Origin: a virus
DNA: 21,280 nt
Reading direction: 5' to 3' (one strand)
Virus record (IMG/VR): IMGVR_UViG_3300000116_000299
Location: 1-21,280 of that record
Part shown: one piece after another, positions 6,327-14,109 of the stretch
Layout: each line of letters begins with the position of its first letter
Numbering within the stretch: position 1 is the first letter of the stretch
Program-made: the position numbers and the translations under genes
Notes under the pieces: model-generated
Seen by the model: only the letters and a program-made list of their open reading frames with translations
What the model was told of the DNA's origin: nothing
The model's database searches: none

Positions 6327-6344
6327 ATTTTGTTTATAAATATT
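6327..6344 (-). promoter_or_regulatory. Late-promoter-like element at the end of the accessory island
   Basis: The coding strand reads AATATTTATAAACAAAAT, one A longer than consensus. It overlaps the stop codon of the reductase gene (6343-6345), so the structural unit restarts exactly where the island ends. Confidence 0.55.
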
Positions 6345-7077
6345 AATAAAATTCTTTTAATGCAATTATTTGTTCTTTTAATGGTAATGTTTTTATTGTC
6401 CCTACTAAACATTTATTAAATACAGGAATATCAATAGGGTTAATAATAATATTTTTATTATATACTTCTTTTAATAAAGAAAGCAATTCATATTTAGATA
6501 CACATTCTCCCTCTAATATATTTTCTGTAGGTAATTCATTCCAATGAAACATTAAATATAAACAGTACTGTGCCCAGGTTAAAGTAGAATTACCATTCCA
6601 ATAATATTCAGAATACCCATTTATTTTACCTTCTTGTGATAAAAACCATTCCATTAAGCTTGCCTTAGTATTTAACTCAGGCCCAAATATTGATGTTTTA
6701 ATAATTTTTGTATTTTTAGCCTCTTCTTTAATCCATTCAGCTGCTATTCTTTTAGAATTACCATAATCATCATTATCCATTTCACAATCAGTTCCTGGGT
6801 GTATAATTCGGGGTTGATGGTTTTCAATATATTTAGATGCATTTGTTTCTAACCATTTAGGTAACTCCCAATTTATTTGAAAATCTGTTGTTCTTTGGTG
6901 TATAGCTCCTATACAATTAATAATATAGGCACCATCAAAATTTTGTACTGATTGTTTAAAACAAGTTGAGGGCCACCTGCAATCTGCAATGGTTATACAT
7001 TCTATTCCTTTACTTTCAAAAAATTTATGGACCATATGTCCTAACATTCCTTTATGTCCTAATATTAATACTTTCAT
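6343..7077 (-). CDS. RmlD-type sugar-nucleotide reductase (SDR family)
   Basis: A 244-residue short-chain dehydrogenase. The N-terminal GHKGMLGH (G7, G10, G13) is the Rossmann NAD(P)-binding glycine motif. HPGTDC at 93-98 corresponds to the STDC-type active-site strand of RmlD, and YGNSK (Y105, K109) is the catalytic Tyr-x3-Lys. The family reduces 4-keto-6-deoxy nucleotide sugars; relatives are RmlD (dTDP-rhamnose) and the reductase domain of WbjC/CapF/FnlB (L-FucNAc pathway). The length fits a reductase without the C-terminal cupin domain of CapF. Its ATG overlaps the TGA of the dehydratase gene (ATGA), indicating translational coupling and a two-step pathway. Predicted substrate: the 4-keto product of the upstream enzyme. 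The exact sugar cannot be told from sequence. Confidence 0.82.
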   Translation of the reverse strand: MKVLILGHKGMLGHMVHKFFESKGIECITIADCRWPSTCFKQSVQNFDGAYIINCIGAIHQRTTDFQINWELPKWLETNASKYIENHQPRIIHPGTDCEMDNDDYGNSKRIAAEWIKEEAKNTKIIKTSIFGPELNTKASLMEWFLSQEGKINGYSEYYWNGNSTLTWAQYCLYLMFHWNELPTENILEGECVSKYELLSLLKEVYNKNIIINPIDIPVFNKCLVGTIKTLPLKEQIIALKEFY

Positions 7078-8015
7078 GGTTTAAAATAATTATAACAATT
7101 TAAAATTTTAGTTAATTCTTCTTTAGATACACACACCTTATCACTTGTAAATTCTTCATTTATACAACGATCAGCTATAGGTACAGTGTCTTTATAATGC
7201 ATATAAAATGTATTTTCATCAAATTCATAATGAGTTCTAGGTGTTTCTTCATTTGAAATCATCATTTCATGGAGTTTTTCTGAAATTCTAGGTTTACCTA
7301 TTGTATATTTAAGGTTAAATTTTTCTTGATATATTTCAAATAAATCTTTTACTCTAAATGATTTTAAATTAGGGATAATATTATATCCACTAGTTTGAAG
7401 TCCTAATTCAATTAAGTCCATTGCTTCCTCTATATTAATCATAAAACGAGTCATTTCTTCTGAATACAAAGTAAGTGGGTAGTTTTTATTAATAGAATCC
7501 CATATTAATGGGATTATACTACCAGTTGAATTTAATACATTTCCGTATACTGCTGTAGATAATTTAACATTTGATTTTTCAGCATTTACTATAAATGACT
7601 CTCCTGCTACAAATTTCATTGCACCATATAATGTAGTAGCTGCTCTGGATTTATCTGAAGATATAAAACACGCTGCTTTAAAATTATTTTCTTCAGCTGC
7701 TCTTCTTGAATTAAGAGCTCCATCTACTAATACTCTAACACTTTCTTCTACATTTTGGTCTACGGCACCTATTTGTTTTAATGAAGCAGCAAATATACCA
7801 ATATCATGCCCAGCAGATGCTCTTTTCAATAAATCAAAATTACGTATATCTCCAATAATACAGTTTATATTTGGAAATTCTTGTTTTAAATAATAATGTT
7901 TTGCTTCATCCCTGCTGTAGATAGTAATTTTATTATCTTTATAATAACGTCTAACTAGATTTTTACCTAAAAACCCAGCCCCTCCAGTTATAAATATTTT
8001 TTTATTTTTAATCAT
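7074..8015 (-). CDS. UDP-GlcNAc 4,6-dehydratase/5-epimerase-like enzyme (FnlA/WbjB/CapE type)
   Basis: A 313-residue extended SDR protein. GGAGFLG at 11-17 binds NAD(P); SSDKS at 119-123 holds the characteristic Ser-Asp-Lys of the CapD/PseB/WbjB group; YGAMK (Y130, K134) is the catalytic Tyr-x3-Lys; EMTRFMI at 187-193 and EKLHEMMIS in the C-terminal third are substrate-domain signatures of this family. These enzymes convert UDP-GlcNAc to a 4-keto-6-deoxy sugar, PseB and the WbjB/FnlA group with C5 inversion. Followed by a RmlD-type reductase in coupled overlap, it would supply a 6-deoxy-N-acetylhexosamine donor such as an L-talo/L-fuco derivative. The usual third enzyme, a C2 epimerase (FnlC/WbjD), is not in the window. 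Distinguishing FnlA-like from PseB-like needs a phylogeny. Confidence 0.88.
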   Translation of the reverse strand: MIKNKKIFITGGAGFLGKNLVRRYYKDNKITIYSRDEAKHYYLKQEFPNINCIIGDIRNFDLLKRASAGHDIGIFAASLKQIGAVDQNVEESVRVLVDGALNSRRAAEENNFKAACFISSDKSRAATTLYGAMKFVAGESFIVNAEKSNVKLSTAVYGNVLNSTGSIIPLIWDSINKNYPLTLYSEEMTRFMINIEEAMDLIELGLQTSGYNIIPNLKSFRVKDLFEIYQEKFNLKYTIGKPRISEKLHEMMISNEETPRTHYEFDENTFYMHYKDTVPIADRCINEEFTSDKVCVSKEELTKILNCYNYFKP

Positions 8016-8964
8016 TAGTATCTATAGATGTTGTTCTTTTTTCCTTAAATATATAAGTTAGGTCAATGTACGAATCATTTAACCAATACCCAAATGAATT
8101 TATTTCTGAATATTTTATGTTAAAAAATGGATCTGTTATTAAAATTTCTTTATTATTAATATTTATTTTTAGATCTTCTTGTATATCATAAATTAAAATA
8201 GAAGGTTCTGTTTTATAGACTTTAGAATCTGTAACACTTTGGTAAAATAATTTAAACAAATCATTATCTTTATTAAAATTGAAAGCATCCTGAAAGTCTA
8301 TATACATAATTTGGTCTTTAACTACTTCAGGATAAACTTCATAATTAAATACAGATATTAAATGTCCTAAATAAGTTTCAGCATCCTTAAAATCCTGATG
8401 TTCTGTAGTAATTGACCCAGCAATGTATTGTTCTTTTGAAATTAAAGGGAGTAATTTTTTTAAATTTTTTTTACTTAAGATATTAAACATAAAACTAGGA
8501 AACCTAAAACCCTTTTCGTTTTCTTTAGCATAAACTTTACTAGTAATAAAATCTTGAGGTGATTTTAAAGTTTCAAATATTAAAGGTGTAAGTATAGTAT
8601 CATAATTAATAAAACTATATTGGTCATAATCTAAAGATAACCCTAAATGGCTTGAAGTTAAAAATTGGTTAAAAGCAGTCCACCCATAATCTGGGAGAAT
8701 GTTAACTAGATCATAACTTTCTTGATCTAATGTAATAGTTTTCCAATATACCATTCCTCTTTGGGGCCAGTGTAGTATAGGATTACTTTTATCATATATA
8801 AAATATTCTATTTGAGATTGAATACTTTTAGGTAAAGGAACATGGGATGTGAGTAATATATCAAAACCATTAGATTTTAATTGTTTAATATTATCATCTA
8901 ATATGTTAATTTTTTCTTCAGTGTCACAATGACTTAAAATTATTATTAAATTTTTATTTGTCAT
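8008..8964 (-). CDS. Putative glycosyltransferase (viral-type GT-A-like)
   Basis: A 318-residue protein that begins with a beta-strand and IIILSHCDTEEKINIL, then a nucleotide-binding-like alternation (IKQLKSNGFDILLTSHVPLP, then FIYDKSNPIL). This start is familiar from a group of glycosyltransferase-like proteins in phages, giant viruses and some polysaccharide clusters. An INYD at about 119-122 could serve as the DxD-like metal site, but a canonical DxD is not clear. It overlaps the large glycoenzyme gene by 11 bases and the dehydratase gene by 8 bases, so it is translated as part of the same island. The likely role is sugar transfer using the donor made by the downstream dehydratase and reductase. 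Donor, acceptor and linkage are unknown. Confidence 0.68.
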   Translation of the reverse strand: MTNKNLIIILSHCDTEEKINILDDNIKQLKSNGFDILLTSHVPLPKSIQSQIEYFIYDKSNPILHWPQRGMVYWKTITLDQESYDLVNILPDYGWTAFNQFLTSSHLGLSLDYDQYSFINYDTILTPLIFETLKSPQDFITSKVYAKENEKGFRFPSFMFNILSKKNLKKLLPLISKEQYIAGSITTEHQDFKDAETYLGHLISVFNYEVYPEVVKDQIMYIDFQDAFNFNKDNDLFKLFYQSVTDSKVYKTEPSILIYDIQEDLKININNKEILITDPFFNIKYSEINSFGYWLNDSYIDLTYIFKEKRTTSIDTND

Positions 8965-11900
8965 AACATGCGATATAAGGGGTTATGTCTTTATTTTTAT
9001 CATACCTAGTAATAGATTCATACTCTATATAATTGGTATCAGAATTACTTTTAAACCAATCACCATTTTTAGTTAATAATTGGTTAATAATAGGCTGTTC
9101 TGATTTGTATAATTTTAGAATTTCTAATTTTTTATCTAAGATATCTTGAGGCAATTTTATATTTGATTTACTAAACACATAAAAATCTTTAGTTGATCTT
9201 ATTATAGATTCAAAAATTGCTTTATGTTGGGGGTGACCATATTCCCCTATGGGGTTATGTGTAACAATTTTTTTCCAACTTTTAGAAATTAAAATAGAAT
9301 GCAAATCAAATCCTTCAGTAAAATTTAATTTATCTTCATAATCTAACATTTCCCAAGAACCAACATTTAATTCTTTCATTACATTTTCAAATTCTTTACT
9401 TCGAATTTTATTTGATTTATTAGTTAAACAAATAACTTTATATTCAGGGCCATGTTTTATTAGTTCTGCTCCCCCAAATATTAGTTCATCATCAGGGTGT
9501 GCTACTATCATTAATTTATTTATTTGATAATCTTTGAAAGCTTTTAATAATGTATTAGCATTTTTATTTTTAACAGAAGGATCAGGACCATGAATAAAAT
9601 AGGGTTCAAAATTATGTTCATTATACATAACATCAAATCCCTGATTGAGAAAATAATTATCTACTTTTTTTTCTTCAATACTGCTATAATAGTTATTCCA
9701 AGTAACAGGAAGATATTCTTGTTTATTTTCTTCCCATAAAATATTATTTGCTACTCTCTCTTCAGAAAATGCATTATCATCAACATATACTTTTACATTA
9801 TAATTATTTAATTCTTTATTCCATTTTAAACACTTTTCAAAAAATGCTTTACTATTTTTGTTATAAAAGTAAAAACCAGTTGCTATAATTCTTCGGTTAG
9901 GATTTCTAGTTAGATTTTTAATGGAAGCTAATTCACTACCATAATTTCCTTCTAATTTTATGTTATTATAATATCTCCATTGATTAATATCTTCATGGAA
10001 ATACCTCATAAATAAAGGATAATCTTTTAAATTATTTAAATATTTTAAAGATTTATCTATATTTTCAGTTACAAAAGCATCTCCATCAACCCAAGCAAAA
10101 CTATTATAATTTTCATTTAAAGAATCTAAACTTGCTAAATATTTAGCAAAGTAAATAGAATAATCTTTATTGAATAAATCAGGTTCATTAGAAGATTGAA
10201 CTGTAGGTTTAGGTCTATAATTTATTCTTTTATTTATTACATTAGGTAAATTAATATTAGAATCACAATTAAACCCATATACTATTAATTTATGTTTAGA
10301 ATACTTTAATAAACTTTCAGCTAATACTTTTATCATAGGAAGATAAGATTCATTACCTCCTGTTATCCACACAAAATTATCGTTTTTTTTTGGATTAAAA
10401 TAATTTATAACTTCACTATAAACCTGGTCTACTGTAATTGATTTTTGGCATATATGTTGTAAATCTGTTCCTTGATGTTCGCCACACCAATCCCAATCAC
10501 CTGCATCAAATACTAATTCTTTACTTACCCAACAATTATTACATACACTATGGTTTTCTATTTTAGTTAAGTTATGAGTAAATTCATACCCATAAGGAAT
10601 AAAATTATTAATCATTACAGTATGTTTATCTAATACCCAATTTACCCAGGATAAACCAGATCCTAATCCTATAAATAAATCTGCATGATATAAATGGTTT
10701 AGAGTATCTTCCCATTTTAAATTTTTCTTATCTACTATATTTGTTCCTTTAAATCCCTCTTTAGATAAATTAACTACTTTATATCCTTTACTATGTAACT
10801 TTTTTGCTAATTTTTTCCAATTTTCATAAGGCCATTCTTTTAACCCAGCTGTTGATTTAGGACCAATGCAAATATATTTACCTTTTATAGGTCTTTTTTT
10901 AGGGGTGAATTTAATACCATAGTGTAATTCTTTATAGGGTAAGCCTAAAATATCAGATGCTGCTTGAATTAATGGAATTGTATTTACTTGGGTTGGATGA
11001 TTGTTAAAATTTTTCCACCCTCCATCTTCATCTCTAAACCAACCTATTTCATATATAGCATAGGCATTATATACAGACCCAGGGTTTATAAATGTTAAAT
11101 CTTTGTATTCTGGAAGTGTTTCAAACCAATTATTATGGTAAGTACTCACAATAACTTCACATTTATGTTTTTTATAAAATTCTAAAACTTGAGGTATCCA
11201 TGCTATTGTATCCCCAATTGATTTAGATTCAAAGTTAATCCTAACTTTTTTTCCTCCCAGATTAAATTTATGAACAACTTTACCATTTATTTTAATTATC
11301 CAAGGAATGTGATAACTTTTACTACATTTAGTCCACATATTATTACTTATGGTATCACTATGTATAACTTCATTAGTATTACCATCTATAAACTCAACAA
11401 AATATTTATTCTTATGATGTCCTAATACTTCTACTTTTGGGCCCTTATCAAAACTTACTTCTACCTTATTTTTAGGTAAATTATCTAATAAATTTTCTAT
11501 TTCTTTGCCTGCTATTTTAGCAGCATTTTCCCAAGTAAACTTTTCTCTAATTATTTTAGATTCTTCTAATGCTTTTTGTTTATGATGTTTATAATTTTCA
11601 TAAGCATCTCTCATTACCTTTTTTAAATGGTCAAAATCAGGTTCATAAAATTCCCCCGCTAATAAAGATTGAGAAAAACTACTATATTCCCCTAGTTTTG
11701 CTTCTGATGTAGATTTTATATTTACAGGTAACCCTAGTCCCTCTGCAAATTCTAATTGGGCGCTACAGTTAGAATATATTGATGGGGTACCACATGCCAT
11801 AGCTTCAATTAGGGGTAAATTCCATCCCTCAGCTCTAGCACAGGATAAAAATACATGACCTTTTTGTAAATAATTTATATATTCTTCTCTGGTAGGGAAA

Positions 11901-12676
11901 TGTTTTATTTTGATCCTGGGGTCATTTAATTTGTAATGTTTTAATCTATCTTCGGTTGATTTAAATTTATCTTGAGCATATGGGTTATCAATTGATACTA
12001 TTAAATCAATGGGTTCATCTTCATTAAACTCCTGTAGGAAAGATTCTATTACTTCTTTTGTTGCTTTTCTATAGTCCCATCTACCAAATAAAACAAATTT
12101 AAATCTTTTATCACTATATTCAGGTAAAGTAACTTGTGAATTTGGTCTAAATGTAAGTCCATCTACAGCTTCGGGTACTACTTTTACTTTAGTAGGATCA
12201 ATACCTTGCTCAATTGTGCAGTCCCTTTGCCATTTTGAGGCAACCCAAACCTGGTCAAATGTTTTTAATTGGTTAAAAAACTCTTCTGGTTGTCTTGTAG
12301 ACTCCCAAACATTATATGCTATCTTAGGACCATCGTAATTTTGATAAAAGAAATGATGATTTGTTTCATTTAAAACTATATTTACATTATGATCAAAACT
12401 ATTAGGGTAATTATTATAAAAAGATTTATGAATTAAGTTATCCCCTTCCCAAAGAGATTGTTCAACTAATAATTTTTTATCTAAACCATCAATATAATCT
12501 TCTCCATTATGGGGTTCTTCATTATGTCCTTCCCATGATTTACCTACAGTATAATTCCTAACCCTTAAATCATAAAGATTAGAAAGTTCTCTATAAAATG
12601 CTCTTGTATGGTTATTGTAACCCGTAGTTCCTATATAACTACCATGTGCAAAAATTTTAGGTTTTTGTTCTAGCAT
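8954..12676 (-). CDS. Four-domain glycoenzyme: GT4 + iron/Cys GT9 + GT-A + PIG-L deacetylase
   Basis: A single 1240-residue frame. Residues 1-400 are a GT4 (GT-B) transferase with FGRWDYRKA at 197-205 and the E-x7-E region ending in EAMACGTP at 291-298. Residues 410-475 are a beta-rich linker. Residues 475-760 are a GT9 heptosyltransferase-like domain (SIGDTIAWIP, then GPKSTAGLKEWP at 605-616) with cysteines 712, 715, 731 and 743, resembling the iron-binding cysteines of TibC-type autotransporter heptosyltransferases. Residues 765-1050 look like a GT-A domain with a DGD (864-866) metal motif. Residues 1052-1240 are a PIG-L/LmbE deacetylase with AHPDDE (1059-1064) and GHPQH (1147-1151); H1060, D1063 and H1151 are the expected zinc ligands. 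The key residues of all four units are present, so each may be active. It overlaps both neighbouring genes. It probably assembles and trims a glycan on a protein or lipid acceptor. Confidence 0.88.
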   Translation of the reverse strand: MLEQKPKIFAHGSYIGTTGYNNHTRAFYRELSNLYDLRVRNYTVGKSWEGHNEEPHNGEDYIDGLDKKLLVEQSLWEGDNLIHKSFYNNYPNSFDHNVNIVLNETNHHFFYQNYDGPKIAYNVWESTRQPEEFFNQLKTFDQVWVASKWQRDCTIEQGIDPTKVKVVPEAVDGLTFRPNSQVTLPEYSDKRFKFVLFGRWDYRKATKEVIESFLQEFNEDEPIDLIVSIDNPYAQDKFKSTEDRLKHYKLNDPRIKIKHFPTREEYINYLQKGHVFLSCARAEGWNLPLIEAMACGTPSIYSNCSAQLEFAEGLGLPVNIKSTSEAKLGEYSSFSQSLLAGEFYEPDFDHLKKVMRDAYENYKHHKQKALEESKIIREKFTWENAAKIAGKEIENLLDNLPKNKVEVSFDKGPKVEVLGHHKNKYFVEFIDGNTNEVIHSDTISNNMWTKCSKSYHIPWIIKINGKVVHKFNLGGKKVRINFESKSIGDTIAWIPQVLEFYKKHKCEVIVSTYHNNWFETLPEYKDLTFINPGSVYNAYAIYEIGWFRDEDGGWKNFNNHPTQVNTIPLIQAASDILGLPYKELHYGIKFTPKKRPIKGKYICIGPKSTAGLKEWPYENWKKLAKKLHSKGYKVVNLSKEGFKGTNIVDKKNLKWEDTLNHLYHADLFIGLGSGLSWVNWVLDKHTVMINNFIPYGYEFTHNLTKIENHSVCNNCWVSKELVFDAGDWDWCGEHQGTDLQHICQKSITVDQVYSEVINYFNPKKNDNFVWITGGNESYLPMIKVLAESLLKYSKHKLIVYGFNCDSNINLPNVINKRINYRPKPTVQSSNEPDLFNKDYSIYFAKYLASLDSLNENYNSFAWVDGDAFVTENIDKSLKYLNNLKDYPLFMRYFHEDINQWRYYNNIKLEGNYGSELASIKNLTRNPNRRIIATGFYFYNKNSKAFFEKCLKWNKELNNYNVKVYVDDNAFSEERVANNILWEENKQEYLPVTWNNYYSSIEEKKVDNYFLNQGFDVMYNEHNFEPYFIHGPDPSVKNKNANTLLKAFKDYQINKLMIVAHPDDELIFGGAELIKHGPEYKVICLTNKSNKIRSKEFENVMKELNVGSWEMLDYEDKLNFTEGFDLHSILISKSWKKIVTHNPIGEYGHPQHKAIFESIIRSTKDFYVFSKSNIKLPQDILDKKLEILKLYKSEQPIINQLLTKNGDWFKSNSDTNYIEYESITRYDKNKDITPYIACYDK

Positions 12677-12875
12677 TTACCCCAAATTTACTAAATTTAT
12701 ACCAAATTCTTTCGTGGAGGAAATATAATACCATTTTAGTAATAACTTCTACACCTCCTATAGCTAAACCTAATTCCCACGATCCTGTAATTAATCCAGA
12801 GAGAACTATTGTATCAATAGTGCCAATAATTCTCCAAGATATGGTTTTAGCAATGTGTCTTTTATAGCTTACCAT
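12657..12875 (-). CDS. DUF2061 small membrane protein
   Basis: A 72-residue protein with the DUF2061 signature: KTISWRIIGTIDT near the N-terminus, a hydrophobic hairpin (VLSGLITGSWELGLAIGG), then VEVITKMVLYFLHERIWYK. Two membrane segments are likely, at about residues 19-32 and 35-54. The biochemical function of the family is unknown, but in bacteria it is often encoded next to sulfate-activation genes such as cysC/cysD/cysN. Here too an APS-kinase-like gene lies three genes upstream, so the association is repeated in a phage. It overlaps the nucleotidyltransferase gene by 14 bases and the large glycoenzyme gene by 20 bases. Its product would sit in the host inner membrane. Confidence 0.87.
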   Translation of the reverse strand: MVSYKRHIAKTISWRIIGTIDTIVLSGLITGSWELGLAIGGVEVITKMVLYFLHERIWYKFSKFGVNARTKT

Positions 12876-13260
12876 CTTCTTTCATTTTAGCTCTAATTTT
12901 AGTTGCAGATACTTCTCTTATCTCATCTGGTGGTACGTGTTCTATTATATCGTAACCTACTCCTCGTCCTATATTAATAGATTCGATATCAGGAAGAATA
13001 GCTATAGCTATCCTACCTTCTTCTATTAAATCTTTTAATTCAATTTTAAGGTTAGCTTCAACTTCTTGAGCAGTCCATGGGTTTTTTGTATCGGGTTCAA
13101 TATCTCTAATACATATTAATATGTTTTTCCCGTCATTTAAACGCTGGTCTATTAACCATCTATGTCCCTTATGCCATGGTTGCCATCTACCGATATACAT
13201 TGAATATTTTACTTCACTATCTGAAGATTTAAATGAGGCTTGTGCTAGGTATTTTTTCAT
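12862..13260 (-). CDS. HxGH-family nucleotidyltransferase
   Basis: A 132-residue protein with the nucleotidyltransferase fold of the cytidylyltransferase/NMNAT group: GRWQPWHKGH (HxGH at H30-H33) for triphosphate binding, NPWTAQEVE in the middle, and SATKIR at 118-123, the equivalent of the ISSTxIR motif. Such enzymes join a phosphorylated small molecule to an NMP from CTP or ATP and release pyrophosphate. The start codon overlaps the stop of the HAD gene (ATGA). It lies with a kinase-like and a phosphatase-like gene, which suggests making an activated CDP- or AMP-linked intermediate for the glycan genes downstream. The substrate cannot be deduced. Motif spacing fits NMNAT/GCT-like proteins rather than ATP sulfurylase. 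Confidence 0.85.
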   Translation of the reverse strand: MKKYLAQASFKSSDSEVKYSMYIGRWQPWHKGHRWLIDQRLNDGKNILICIRDIEPDTKNPWTAQEVEANLKIELKDLIEEGRIAIAILPDIESINIGRGVGYDIIEHVPPDEIREVSATKIRAKMKEDGKL

Positions 13261-13595
13261 ATTCCTTTATCTCTTTCTAAATTAATTGCTATTGCTCTTT
13301 CTCCTGGATTATTTGGGTCCATATCGTTAATTAAATAACGAGGTCCTCTTTCAATCCCCATAATTAATCTATGGTAAGGTACTTCGTTTTCATATAATTC
13401 TACTTCAGTATGTACCCTTAAATATTCAGGGCGAGCTGTAGTTAGAATTATCATATGTCCTTCATTTACTGCTCTATCTAAATATTCTATGGTGGACTCT
13501 ATACCTTCAGCTTTAGAAGTCTCGTATGTTTCAAATTGACGGTATTTTAGAATAGTACCATCTATATCACAAAAATATGTATTTTTTTTCTCCAT
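13257..13595 (-). CDS. HAD-superfamily phosphatase-like protein
   Basis: A 112-residue minimal HAD domain. Motif I is CDIDGTI (D10, D12), the nucleophile and acid/base aspartates; motif II is LTTARP at 51-56; the C-terminal motif is RYLINDMDP with D91 and D93 for Mg2+. There is no large cap domain, so it resembles small capless HAD proteins such as polynucleotide-kinase-phosphatase-like or sugar-phosphate phosphatases. It starts one base after the end of the APS-kinase-like frame and overlaps the nucleotidyltransferase start, so it is translated with both. It probably removes or edits a phosphate on the same small-molecule intermediate. The Gly-Pro-Arg after motif II gives a conserved-looking basic residue (R86) in the usual motif III region. 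Confidence 0.8.
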   Translation of the reverse strand: MEKKNTYFCDIDGTILKYRQFETYETSKAEGIESTIEYLDRAVNEGHMIILTTARPEYLRVHTEVELYENEVPYHRLIMGIERGPRYLINDMDPNNPGERAIAINLERDKGI

Positions 13596-13596
13596 A

Positions 13597-14109
13597 TTAA
13601 TTGTCTAATTGGTAATCTGAAGGTGGTAGTTCATTTAGTAAAGACCCTTCAGGGTATTTTTTATCTAAACCAATTTTTTTAGCTATTATATCTAATGATT
13701 CTTCCGGTGTTTGATTTGTTGTATCTACATCAGTATAATCAAAGTCTGGTTTTTGGAATTGGGATACGTGGTAATTTTCTCTACCCCTAAGTCCTTTATC
13801 TAAATTGTAATGTACAAAAATTTCATGTAATTGCCACTTCATTATGTCTTTAAATTCTTCTCTTTGGTCTAAGTAAGGAGAAACTAAAGATACAATAACA
13901 TCTTTACCTTGATTATGTAAATAATGAGCTATTTTTTGGGCGGCATCTACATTAGTTATTCTACCTTTTATAGAATAATCTTTATTTGTAAATAATTCTC
14001 TCATTTCATCCCCATCTATTCGATAAGCATGTGGGAGGTATTTTTCTTTAAGCATGTTTGCTAATACAGTCTTCCCAGAACAGGGTTGACCCGTAAACCA
14101 ATATATCAT
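13597..14109 (-). CDS. Adenylylsulfate kinase-like P-loop kinase (CysC-like)
   Basis: A 170-residue protein with a Walker A motif GQPCSGKT (7-14), IDGDEMRELF at 31-40 (typical of APS kinase and relatives), then GRITNVDAAQKIAHYLHNQGKD and VSLVSPYLDQREEF, corresponding to the SPY/F-R-R/D-x-R-E segment of CysC. APS kinase phosphorylates adenylylsulfate to PAPS, the donor for sulfotransferases. The typical GLSGSGKS is replaced by GQPCSGKT and the last 50 residues diverge, so a different small-molecule kinase activity is possible. It is the first gene of the accessory island and follows gp15 after a 52-base gap. Neither an ATP sulfurylase nor a sulfotransferase gene is visible in the window. The DUF2061 gene downstream supports a sulfate link. 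Confidence 0.78.
   Translation of the reverse strand: MIYWFTGQPCSGKTVLANMLKEKYLPHAYRIDGDEMRELFTNKDYSIKGRITNVDAAQKIAHYLHNQGKDVIVSLVSPYLDQREEFKDIMKWQLHEIFVHYNLDKGLRGRENYHVSQFQKPDFDYTDVDTTNQTPEESLDIIAKKIGLDKKYPEGSLLNELPPSDYQLDN

Follow-up and report, generated by a model that had tools for sequence, protein, structure and literature searches.

A recurrent four-module phage protein with a TibC-like glycosyltransferase and its genomic link to collagen-like fibers

The protein O-heptosyltransferase TibC has a 1Fe-0S finger formed via Cys-339, Cys-342, Cys-358, and Cys-370, and its Asp-110, Thr-226, Lys-230, Arg-286, and Trp-305 serve in binding or activation; characterized members of its family, the bacterial autotransporter heptosyltransferases (BAHT), glycosylate protein Ser (PMC4358343). 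Among viruses, the chlorovirus PBCV-1 encodes three-domain glycosyltransferases (A064R, with a methyltransferase, and A111/114R), and mimivirus L230, a collagen lysyl hydroxylase-glucosyltransferase, is a known viral collagen glycosyltransferase (PMC9614988). Here we describe a 1,240-residue marine phage protein in which a TibC-like enzyme is joined to a GT4 glycosyltransferase, a GT-A glycosyltransferase, and a PIG-L deacetylase. Its gene lies on virus contig IMGVR_UViG_3300000116_000299, the whole of which (21,280 bases) was analyzed and is referred to as the window. We consider it probable, with considerable room for doubt, that this fusion is a phage multienzyme O-glycosylation machine that decorates collagen-like tail fibers.

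The reading frame has no internal stops over its 1,240 residues on the minus strand. The original prediction, made from the bare sequence, of a single frame with three glycosyltransferase modules and a PIG-L module was borne out by profile searches and by AlphaFold models with fold matches, and the motifs that it quoted, EAMACGTP at residues 291 to 298 and those in Table 1, are intact at the positions claimed. The models of the individual segments are of moderate confidence (mean predicted local distance difference test score [pLDDT], about 75 to 78). All motif residues that were checked stay constant across 17 to 18 aligned relatives, except for the four cysteines of module 2, which 1 of 18 lacks. 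The ratio of nonsynonymous to synonymous substitution (dN/dS) between the window and five relatives is 0.09 to 0.28 in each module, and all four modules are under purifying selection. Comparison with one relative, L002, revealed uneven synonymous divergence (0.19 in GT4 and 0.62 in GT-A), which suggests module recombination.

The second module, originally called GT9-like, can be named more precisely as a TibC/Aah-type enzyme with iron-finger cysteines. Residues 404 to 756 match TIGR04414 with an E value of 2.9e-58 and 197.6 bits, just under the curated cutoff of 200 bits; among 12 relatives, 8 exceed this cutoff, with a top score of 233 bits. The TibC structure (PDB 4rap) matches the module at E = 6e-33, and the top PDB matches of its AlphaFold model are all TibC chains (Foldseek E = 4e-19). 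D489, T609, K613, and W677 correspond to TibC D110, T226, K230, and W305 and are unchanged in 100 of 100 homologues; all four iron-finger cysteines are present in 96 of these, and the remaining 4 have none. BAHT modules that lack all four cysteines but retain the catalytic residues were seen at L011, L082, L083, and L125. Two features of TibC are missing. Where TibC has Arg-286, which contacts the adenine of ADP-heptose, the window protein has Thr (2 of 100 relatives have Arg), and the region of TibC residues 257 to 275, the beta-hairpin thumb used for the dodecamer, is about 9 residues shorter, with no long hairpin in the model. The donor may therefore be something other than ADP-heptose, and a dodecamer could not assemble through the contact that TibC uses. 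We class the module as BAHT-like rather than as a BAHT member because its score lies below 200 bits and both the Arg-286 counterpart and the thumb are absent.

The other three modules were assigned as follows. GT4 matches PF00534 (E = 5e-11, above the cutoff) and phrog_2170 (E = 4e-31), with fold matches to 3oy2, MshA, and PimA; its EX7E residues (E283 and E291), R199, and K204 are invariant across 18 alignment rows. PIG-L matches PF02585 at residues 1055 to 1156 (E = 5e-10; 40.5 bits against a cutoff of 28.2) and the fold of diacetylchitobiose deacetylase 3wl3, and the zinc-site residues H1060, D1062, D1063, H1148, and H1151 are invariant in the aligned relatives. Residues 765 to 1050 had no significant match in Pfam, and no sequence family matched them significantly. 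The model of this segment, with a mean pLDDT of 77 and low values in several loops, matches glycogenin, LARGE1, and the glycosyltransferase part of LH3 (fold E values of ∼5e-8 to 4e-6), and DGD and H1029 are invariant in 17 alignment rows; module 3 is probably a GT-A enzyme, with a modeled fold nearest to glycogenin/LARGE.

The fusion is not confined to the window. The original prediction treated its domain order as undescribed, but a scan of viral contigs found 32 loci with 63 to 86% identity, and the fused four-module gene occurs on 24 distinct IMG/VR contigs among 95 distinct loci, where the gene is repeatedly split or reshuffled. GT-A/PIG-L forms a separate gene that overlaps or abuts GT4-BAHT at 9 of these loci, a homologue of a 318-amino-acid gene of the window (GTx) replaces PIG-L at 5, GT4-BAHT stands alone at 34, and BAHT stands alone at 22; some loci are cut by contig ends. 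Splits recur at the BAHT/GT-A junction, and the fused or split state requires at least five changes on the BAHT tree. Conservation and recurrence of the architecture are far beyond chance. A partly decayed gene or an assembly artifact, without coordinated function, might be suspected from the split frames of a few relatives, and L017 and L071 look frame shifted. However, splits fall exactly at the domain boundary and leave intact adjoining or overlapping genes, the motifs are invariant in relatives, and 24 contigs carry the fusion; given the purifying selection on every module, this explanation is largely refuted and very improbable.

GT4-BAHT is the widespread core of the family, and the BAHT module was confirmed in at least 598 viral stretches. 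Only two BAHT-module loci, both bacterial, were confirmed among about 85,000 species genomes, an undercount of bacterial relatives, as the search patterns were derived from viral sequences. TibC-type enzymes have been described for bacterial adhesins; the present branch turned up far more often among viral contigs than among the bacterial genomes surveyed. A cultured representative, Microcystis phage Mel-JY01 (PP395634), encodes a 1,226-residue protein with the order GT4, GTx-like segment, methyltransferase-like segment, and BAHT, which the record (L034:4750-8430; PP395634.1) annotates only as "methyltransferase FkbM."

Several lines of evidence link the module to collagen-like fibers. First, giant (GSSGTSG)n proteins are encoded upstream in relatives (at L015, 2,745 amino acids and 800 bases from the fusion). 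Pfam assigns them to Collagen; of four fibers scanned, two (L026 and L113) end in an S74 endosialidase chaperone, a domain typical of tail fibers and spikes. Second, the BAHT module was found on 21 of 42 contigs of at least 30 kb that were selected for nothing but a DNA pattern encoding Gly-X-Y repeats rich in S/T and on none of 44 random contigs, which were somewhat shorter (at least 20 kb) (Fisher P = 9e-9). On several of the positive contigs the fiber and module genes lie on opposite strands, and the link is therefore not accounted for by a common operon polarity. Third, among contigs sharing the T4-like major capsid protein of the window, the strict repeat pattern was present in 5 of 6 with the module versus 1 of 26 without it (P = 1.7e-4). 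Fourth, 20 of 62 module loci have a same-strand collagen-like gene upstream, compared with 5 of 80 random loci (P = 9e-5); none was found downstream at 93 loci, which is not an independent control, as the tail cluster is syntenic. Within 9-kb stretches around repeats the module was found in just 6 of 80, and the link is therefore mostly at the contig level. A 735-kb phage with the module also has a Ser/Thr-rich Gly-X-Y open reading frame (ORF) nearby.

Gene content differs with the composition of the collagen. A 2-oxoglutarate (2OG)-Fe(II) oxygenase is encoded at 7 of 7 loci with Ser/Thr-poor (GPIGPQG-type) collagen but at only 1 of 15 with Ser/Thr-rich collagen, as expected if hydroxyl acceptors must be made where Ser and Thr are missing. 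GPIGPQG-collagen loci also encode a GT4-GT25-like protein with a weak OGFOD2-like match alongside the oxygenase (L115:4320-8814), and their gene set resembles a collagen hydroxylation-glycosylation set. In Mel-JY01, a 1,016-residue (GSSGTSG)n ORF on the plus strand (L034:2-3052; PP395634.1) is unannotated, with two "hypothetical" genes entered on the opposite strand. The two bacterial homologues (L138 and L139) have a Ser/Thr-rich Gly-X-Y ORF within ∼1 to 5 kb (L138:8651-9079 and L139:3375-4850); these ORFs are short (18 and 42 triplets), and their proximity is suggestive only, although in line with the fiber link.

In the window, the fusion gene sits within a T4-like virion gene cluster. Along the minus strand, the major capsid protein, PhoH, several unassigned genes, one gene matching a head-tail adaptor, and a further pair of unassigned genes precede a metabolic island (APS-kinase-like, HAD, nucleotidyltransferase-like, and DUF2061) and the fusion, which is followed by the 318-amino-acid gene, PseB/FnlA-like and RmlD-like genes, one small gene, and the genes for tail sheath and tail tube. 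The original prediction was right about the late virion-gene region, and virion-protein modification, which it proposed, is probable, but the neighboring neck genes are probably not the target: the genomic signal lies with collagen-like fibers. For neck proteins there was no signal apart from synteny. The enzyme could instead act on other virion proteins (capsid, neck, or sheath): its gene lies between neck/head-tail adaptor genes and sheath/tube genes, and in mycobacteriophages the capsid and tail tube proteins have been shown to carry phage-directed glycosylation (PMC12363180). We regard this as rather unlikely, as synteny of the tail cluster is common to relatives with any module set and the co-occurrence signal belongs to the collagen-like fibers. 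Judged from these associations, the Ser/Thr-rich (GSSGTSG)n fibers, rather than the neck, are the likely acceptor.

Glycosyltransferases of marine myophages are usually read as remodeling the host surface. On that reading the fusion would alter host lipopolysaccharide (LPS) or capsule and exclude superinfecting phages; LPS pathways typically include GT4, GT8-like, and PseB/RmlD-like genes, and this role has been proposed for pelagimyophages (PMC7029224). Against this, the family of the central module glycosylates protein Ser in characterized members (PMC4358343), the operon has no recognized lipid-carrier or membrane glycosyltransferase, and the gene lies among virion assembly genes and is linked to collagen genes. 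We consider host-surface remodeling unlikely.

The donor sugars would be supplied at least in part by neighboring genes. PseB/RmlD-like genes accompany PIG-L at 18 of 29 loci and occur at none of 35 loci without it; the ancestry-corrected test left two to three informative pairs, all in the expected direction but not significant. The pairing would fit an N-acetylated dideoxyhexose that is deacetylated by PIG-L, and the glycan may, as originally predicted, carry a free amino group. Heptose as the donor of the phage enzyme is doubtful. A search of ten records, the window and its two long relatives among them, gave no gmhA match, and rfaE domain II-like genes were found in only three records, which include neither the window nor these relatives; with the adenine contact lost as well, a phage heptose supply is not favored.

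We infer the acceptor and order of action as follows. The TibC-like module would place the first sugar on hydroxyls of a collagen-like (Gly-X-Y) tail fiber, on Ser/Thr where these are abundant; it is proposed as the initiator because protein Ser is the acceptor for its characterized relatives. Extension or branching of the glycan may fall to the GT4 and GT-A modules, and the PIG-L module may remove the acetyl group from an N-acetylhexosamine supplied via the neighboring PseB/RmlD-like genes. More tentatively, the large, mostly viral TibC-like branch might form a general phage O-glycosylation system for collagen-like fibers, acting on Ser/Thr in (GSSGTSG)n fibers and on Pro/Lys hydroxylated by the 2OG-Fe(II) oxygenase in Ser/Thr-poor ones, with exchangeable glycosyltransferase, methyltransferase, and deacetylase modules varying the glycan; we find this generalization plausible but hold it with less confidence than the role of the fusion itself.

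Several observations weigh against the fiber-glycosylation proposal. No collagen-like fiber is encoded in the window, relatives in its own subclade have no collagen-like gene within 8 kb upstream, and 21 of the 42 repeat-bearing contigs lack the module. The ancestry-corrected test of oxygenase against collagen type gave two concordant and no discordant pairs, too few for significance, the contigs are fragmentary and related to one another, and the neighboring genes for N-acetyl sugars would be equally at home in a pathway that modifies host lipopolysaccharide or another glycan. The window phage presumably has its own fiber; both of its long close relatives (119 and 120 kb) hold such fibers elsewhere in their genomes.

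The coordinates of the fusion, its modules, and adjacent genes are given in Table 1. The product of the PseB/FnlA-like gene matches PseB (TIGR03589, E = 3e-50) and FnlA (E = 2e-31), both under the curated cutoffs. GTx had no matches in profile library searches; a homologue takes the place of PIG-L in a 602-residue relative. A 72-residue DUF2061 membrane protein (12657-12875, minus strand), too small for the program-made ORF list, overlaps the start of the fusion gene. At 12862-14109 (minus strand), small APS-kinase-like, HAD-like, and NMN-adenylyltransferase-like genes stand in a row, and phrog_10255 joins the kinase and transferase. This trio was considered as an ADP-heptose pathway and rejected, the APS kinase, HAD, and NMN adenylyltransferase families being the better matches. 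The nearest cultured phages by capsid protein are Flavobacterium phage immuto (56%) and then Mel-JY01 (48%).

Table 1. Positions of the fusion gene, its modules, and adjacent sugar-related genes in the window
Feature	Position	Strand	Details
Fusion protein gene (GT4-BAHT-GTA-PIG-L)	8954..12676	-	1240 aa (amino acids); starts with ATG at 12676, range includes the stop codon (8954)
Module 1, residues 1-400, GT-B retaining GT4	11477..12676	-	EX7E motif E283...E291, R199, K204
Module 2, residues 404-760, TibC/Aah-like O-glycosyltransferase (BAHT-like)	10397..11467	-	D489, T609, K613, W677
Iron-finger cysteines C712, C715, C731, C743	10448..10543	-	Align with TibC C339/C342/C358/C370
Module 3, residues 766-1052, GT-A glycosyltransferase, glycogenin/LARGE-like	9521..10381	-	DGD 864-866, H1029 (HGPDPS)
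Module 4, residues 1053-1240, PIG-L/LmbE de-N-acetylase	8957..9520	-	AHPDDE 1059-1064, GHPQH 1147-1151
318-aa gene "GTx," probable fourth glycosyltransferase	8008..8964	-	L021/L022/L025/L028/L067 carry a homologue of this domain joined to GT-A
PseB/FnlA-like UDP-GlcNAc 4,6-dehydratase family short-chain dehydrogenase/reductase (SDR)	7074..8015	-	PF02719 E=9e-43; nucleotide-sugar supply
RmlD-like SDR, 244 aa (short), probable nucleotide-sugar reductase	6343..7077	-	PF04321 E=0.005, weak

If the proposal is correct, a function would be assigned to glycosyltransferases that are abundant in marine phages and are commonly taken for modifiers of host LPS, phages would possess a collagen-glycosylation system, and swapping of enzyme modules would let them vary the sugar coat of receptor-contacting fibers. 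Its predictions can be checked on cultured Mel-JY01. Our literature coverage was incomplete, and within it we found no published report of BAHT in phages, nor of this set of modules in one protein, of the predominance of viruses in the branch, or of the collagen-fiber link.

Among described systems, TibC/Aah (TIGR04414; PDB 4RAP and 4RB4) aligns with residues 404 to 760 over nearly its full length, with the catalytic residues and four cysteines kept. The phage module differs in being fused to GT4, GT-A, and PIG-L, in lacking the thumb, and in the change of R286 to Thr, and its branch is linked with collagen-like fibers, whereas TibC is linked with autotransporters. PBCV-1 A064R and A111/114R likewise chain glycosyltransferase domains in single viral proteins that build a virion-protein glycan, but with another domain set and order, without TibC-like or PIG-L domains, and on an N-glycan of a eukaryotic virus capsid protein (PMC9614988). 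Mimivirus L230 glycosylates collagen-like proteins after hydroxylation, which parallels the loci combining Pro/Lys-type collagen with a 2OG oxygenase; its domain set is different, and the window protein lacks a hydroxylase domain and probably uses a Ser/Thr acceptor. Che8 gp110 and Corndog gp38 (Freeman et al. 2023), as described in PMC12363180, share phage-encoded virion glycosylation but each works as a single enzyme, with the capsid and tail tube as targets. The Mel-JY01 protein has 51% (GT4) and 42% (BAHT) identity to that of the window and its gene lies two genes away from the collagen-like (GSSGTSG)n ORF; it differs in carrying inserts between GT4 and BAHT and in having neither GT-A nor PIG-L.
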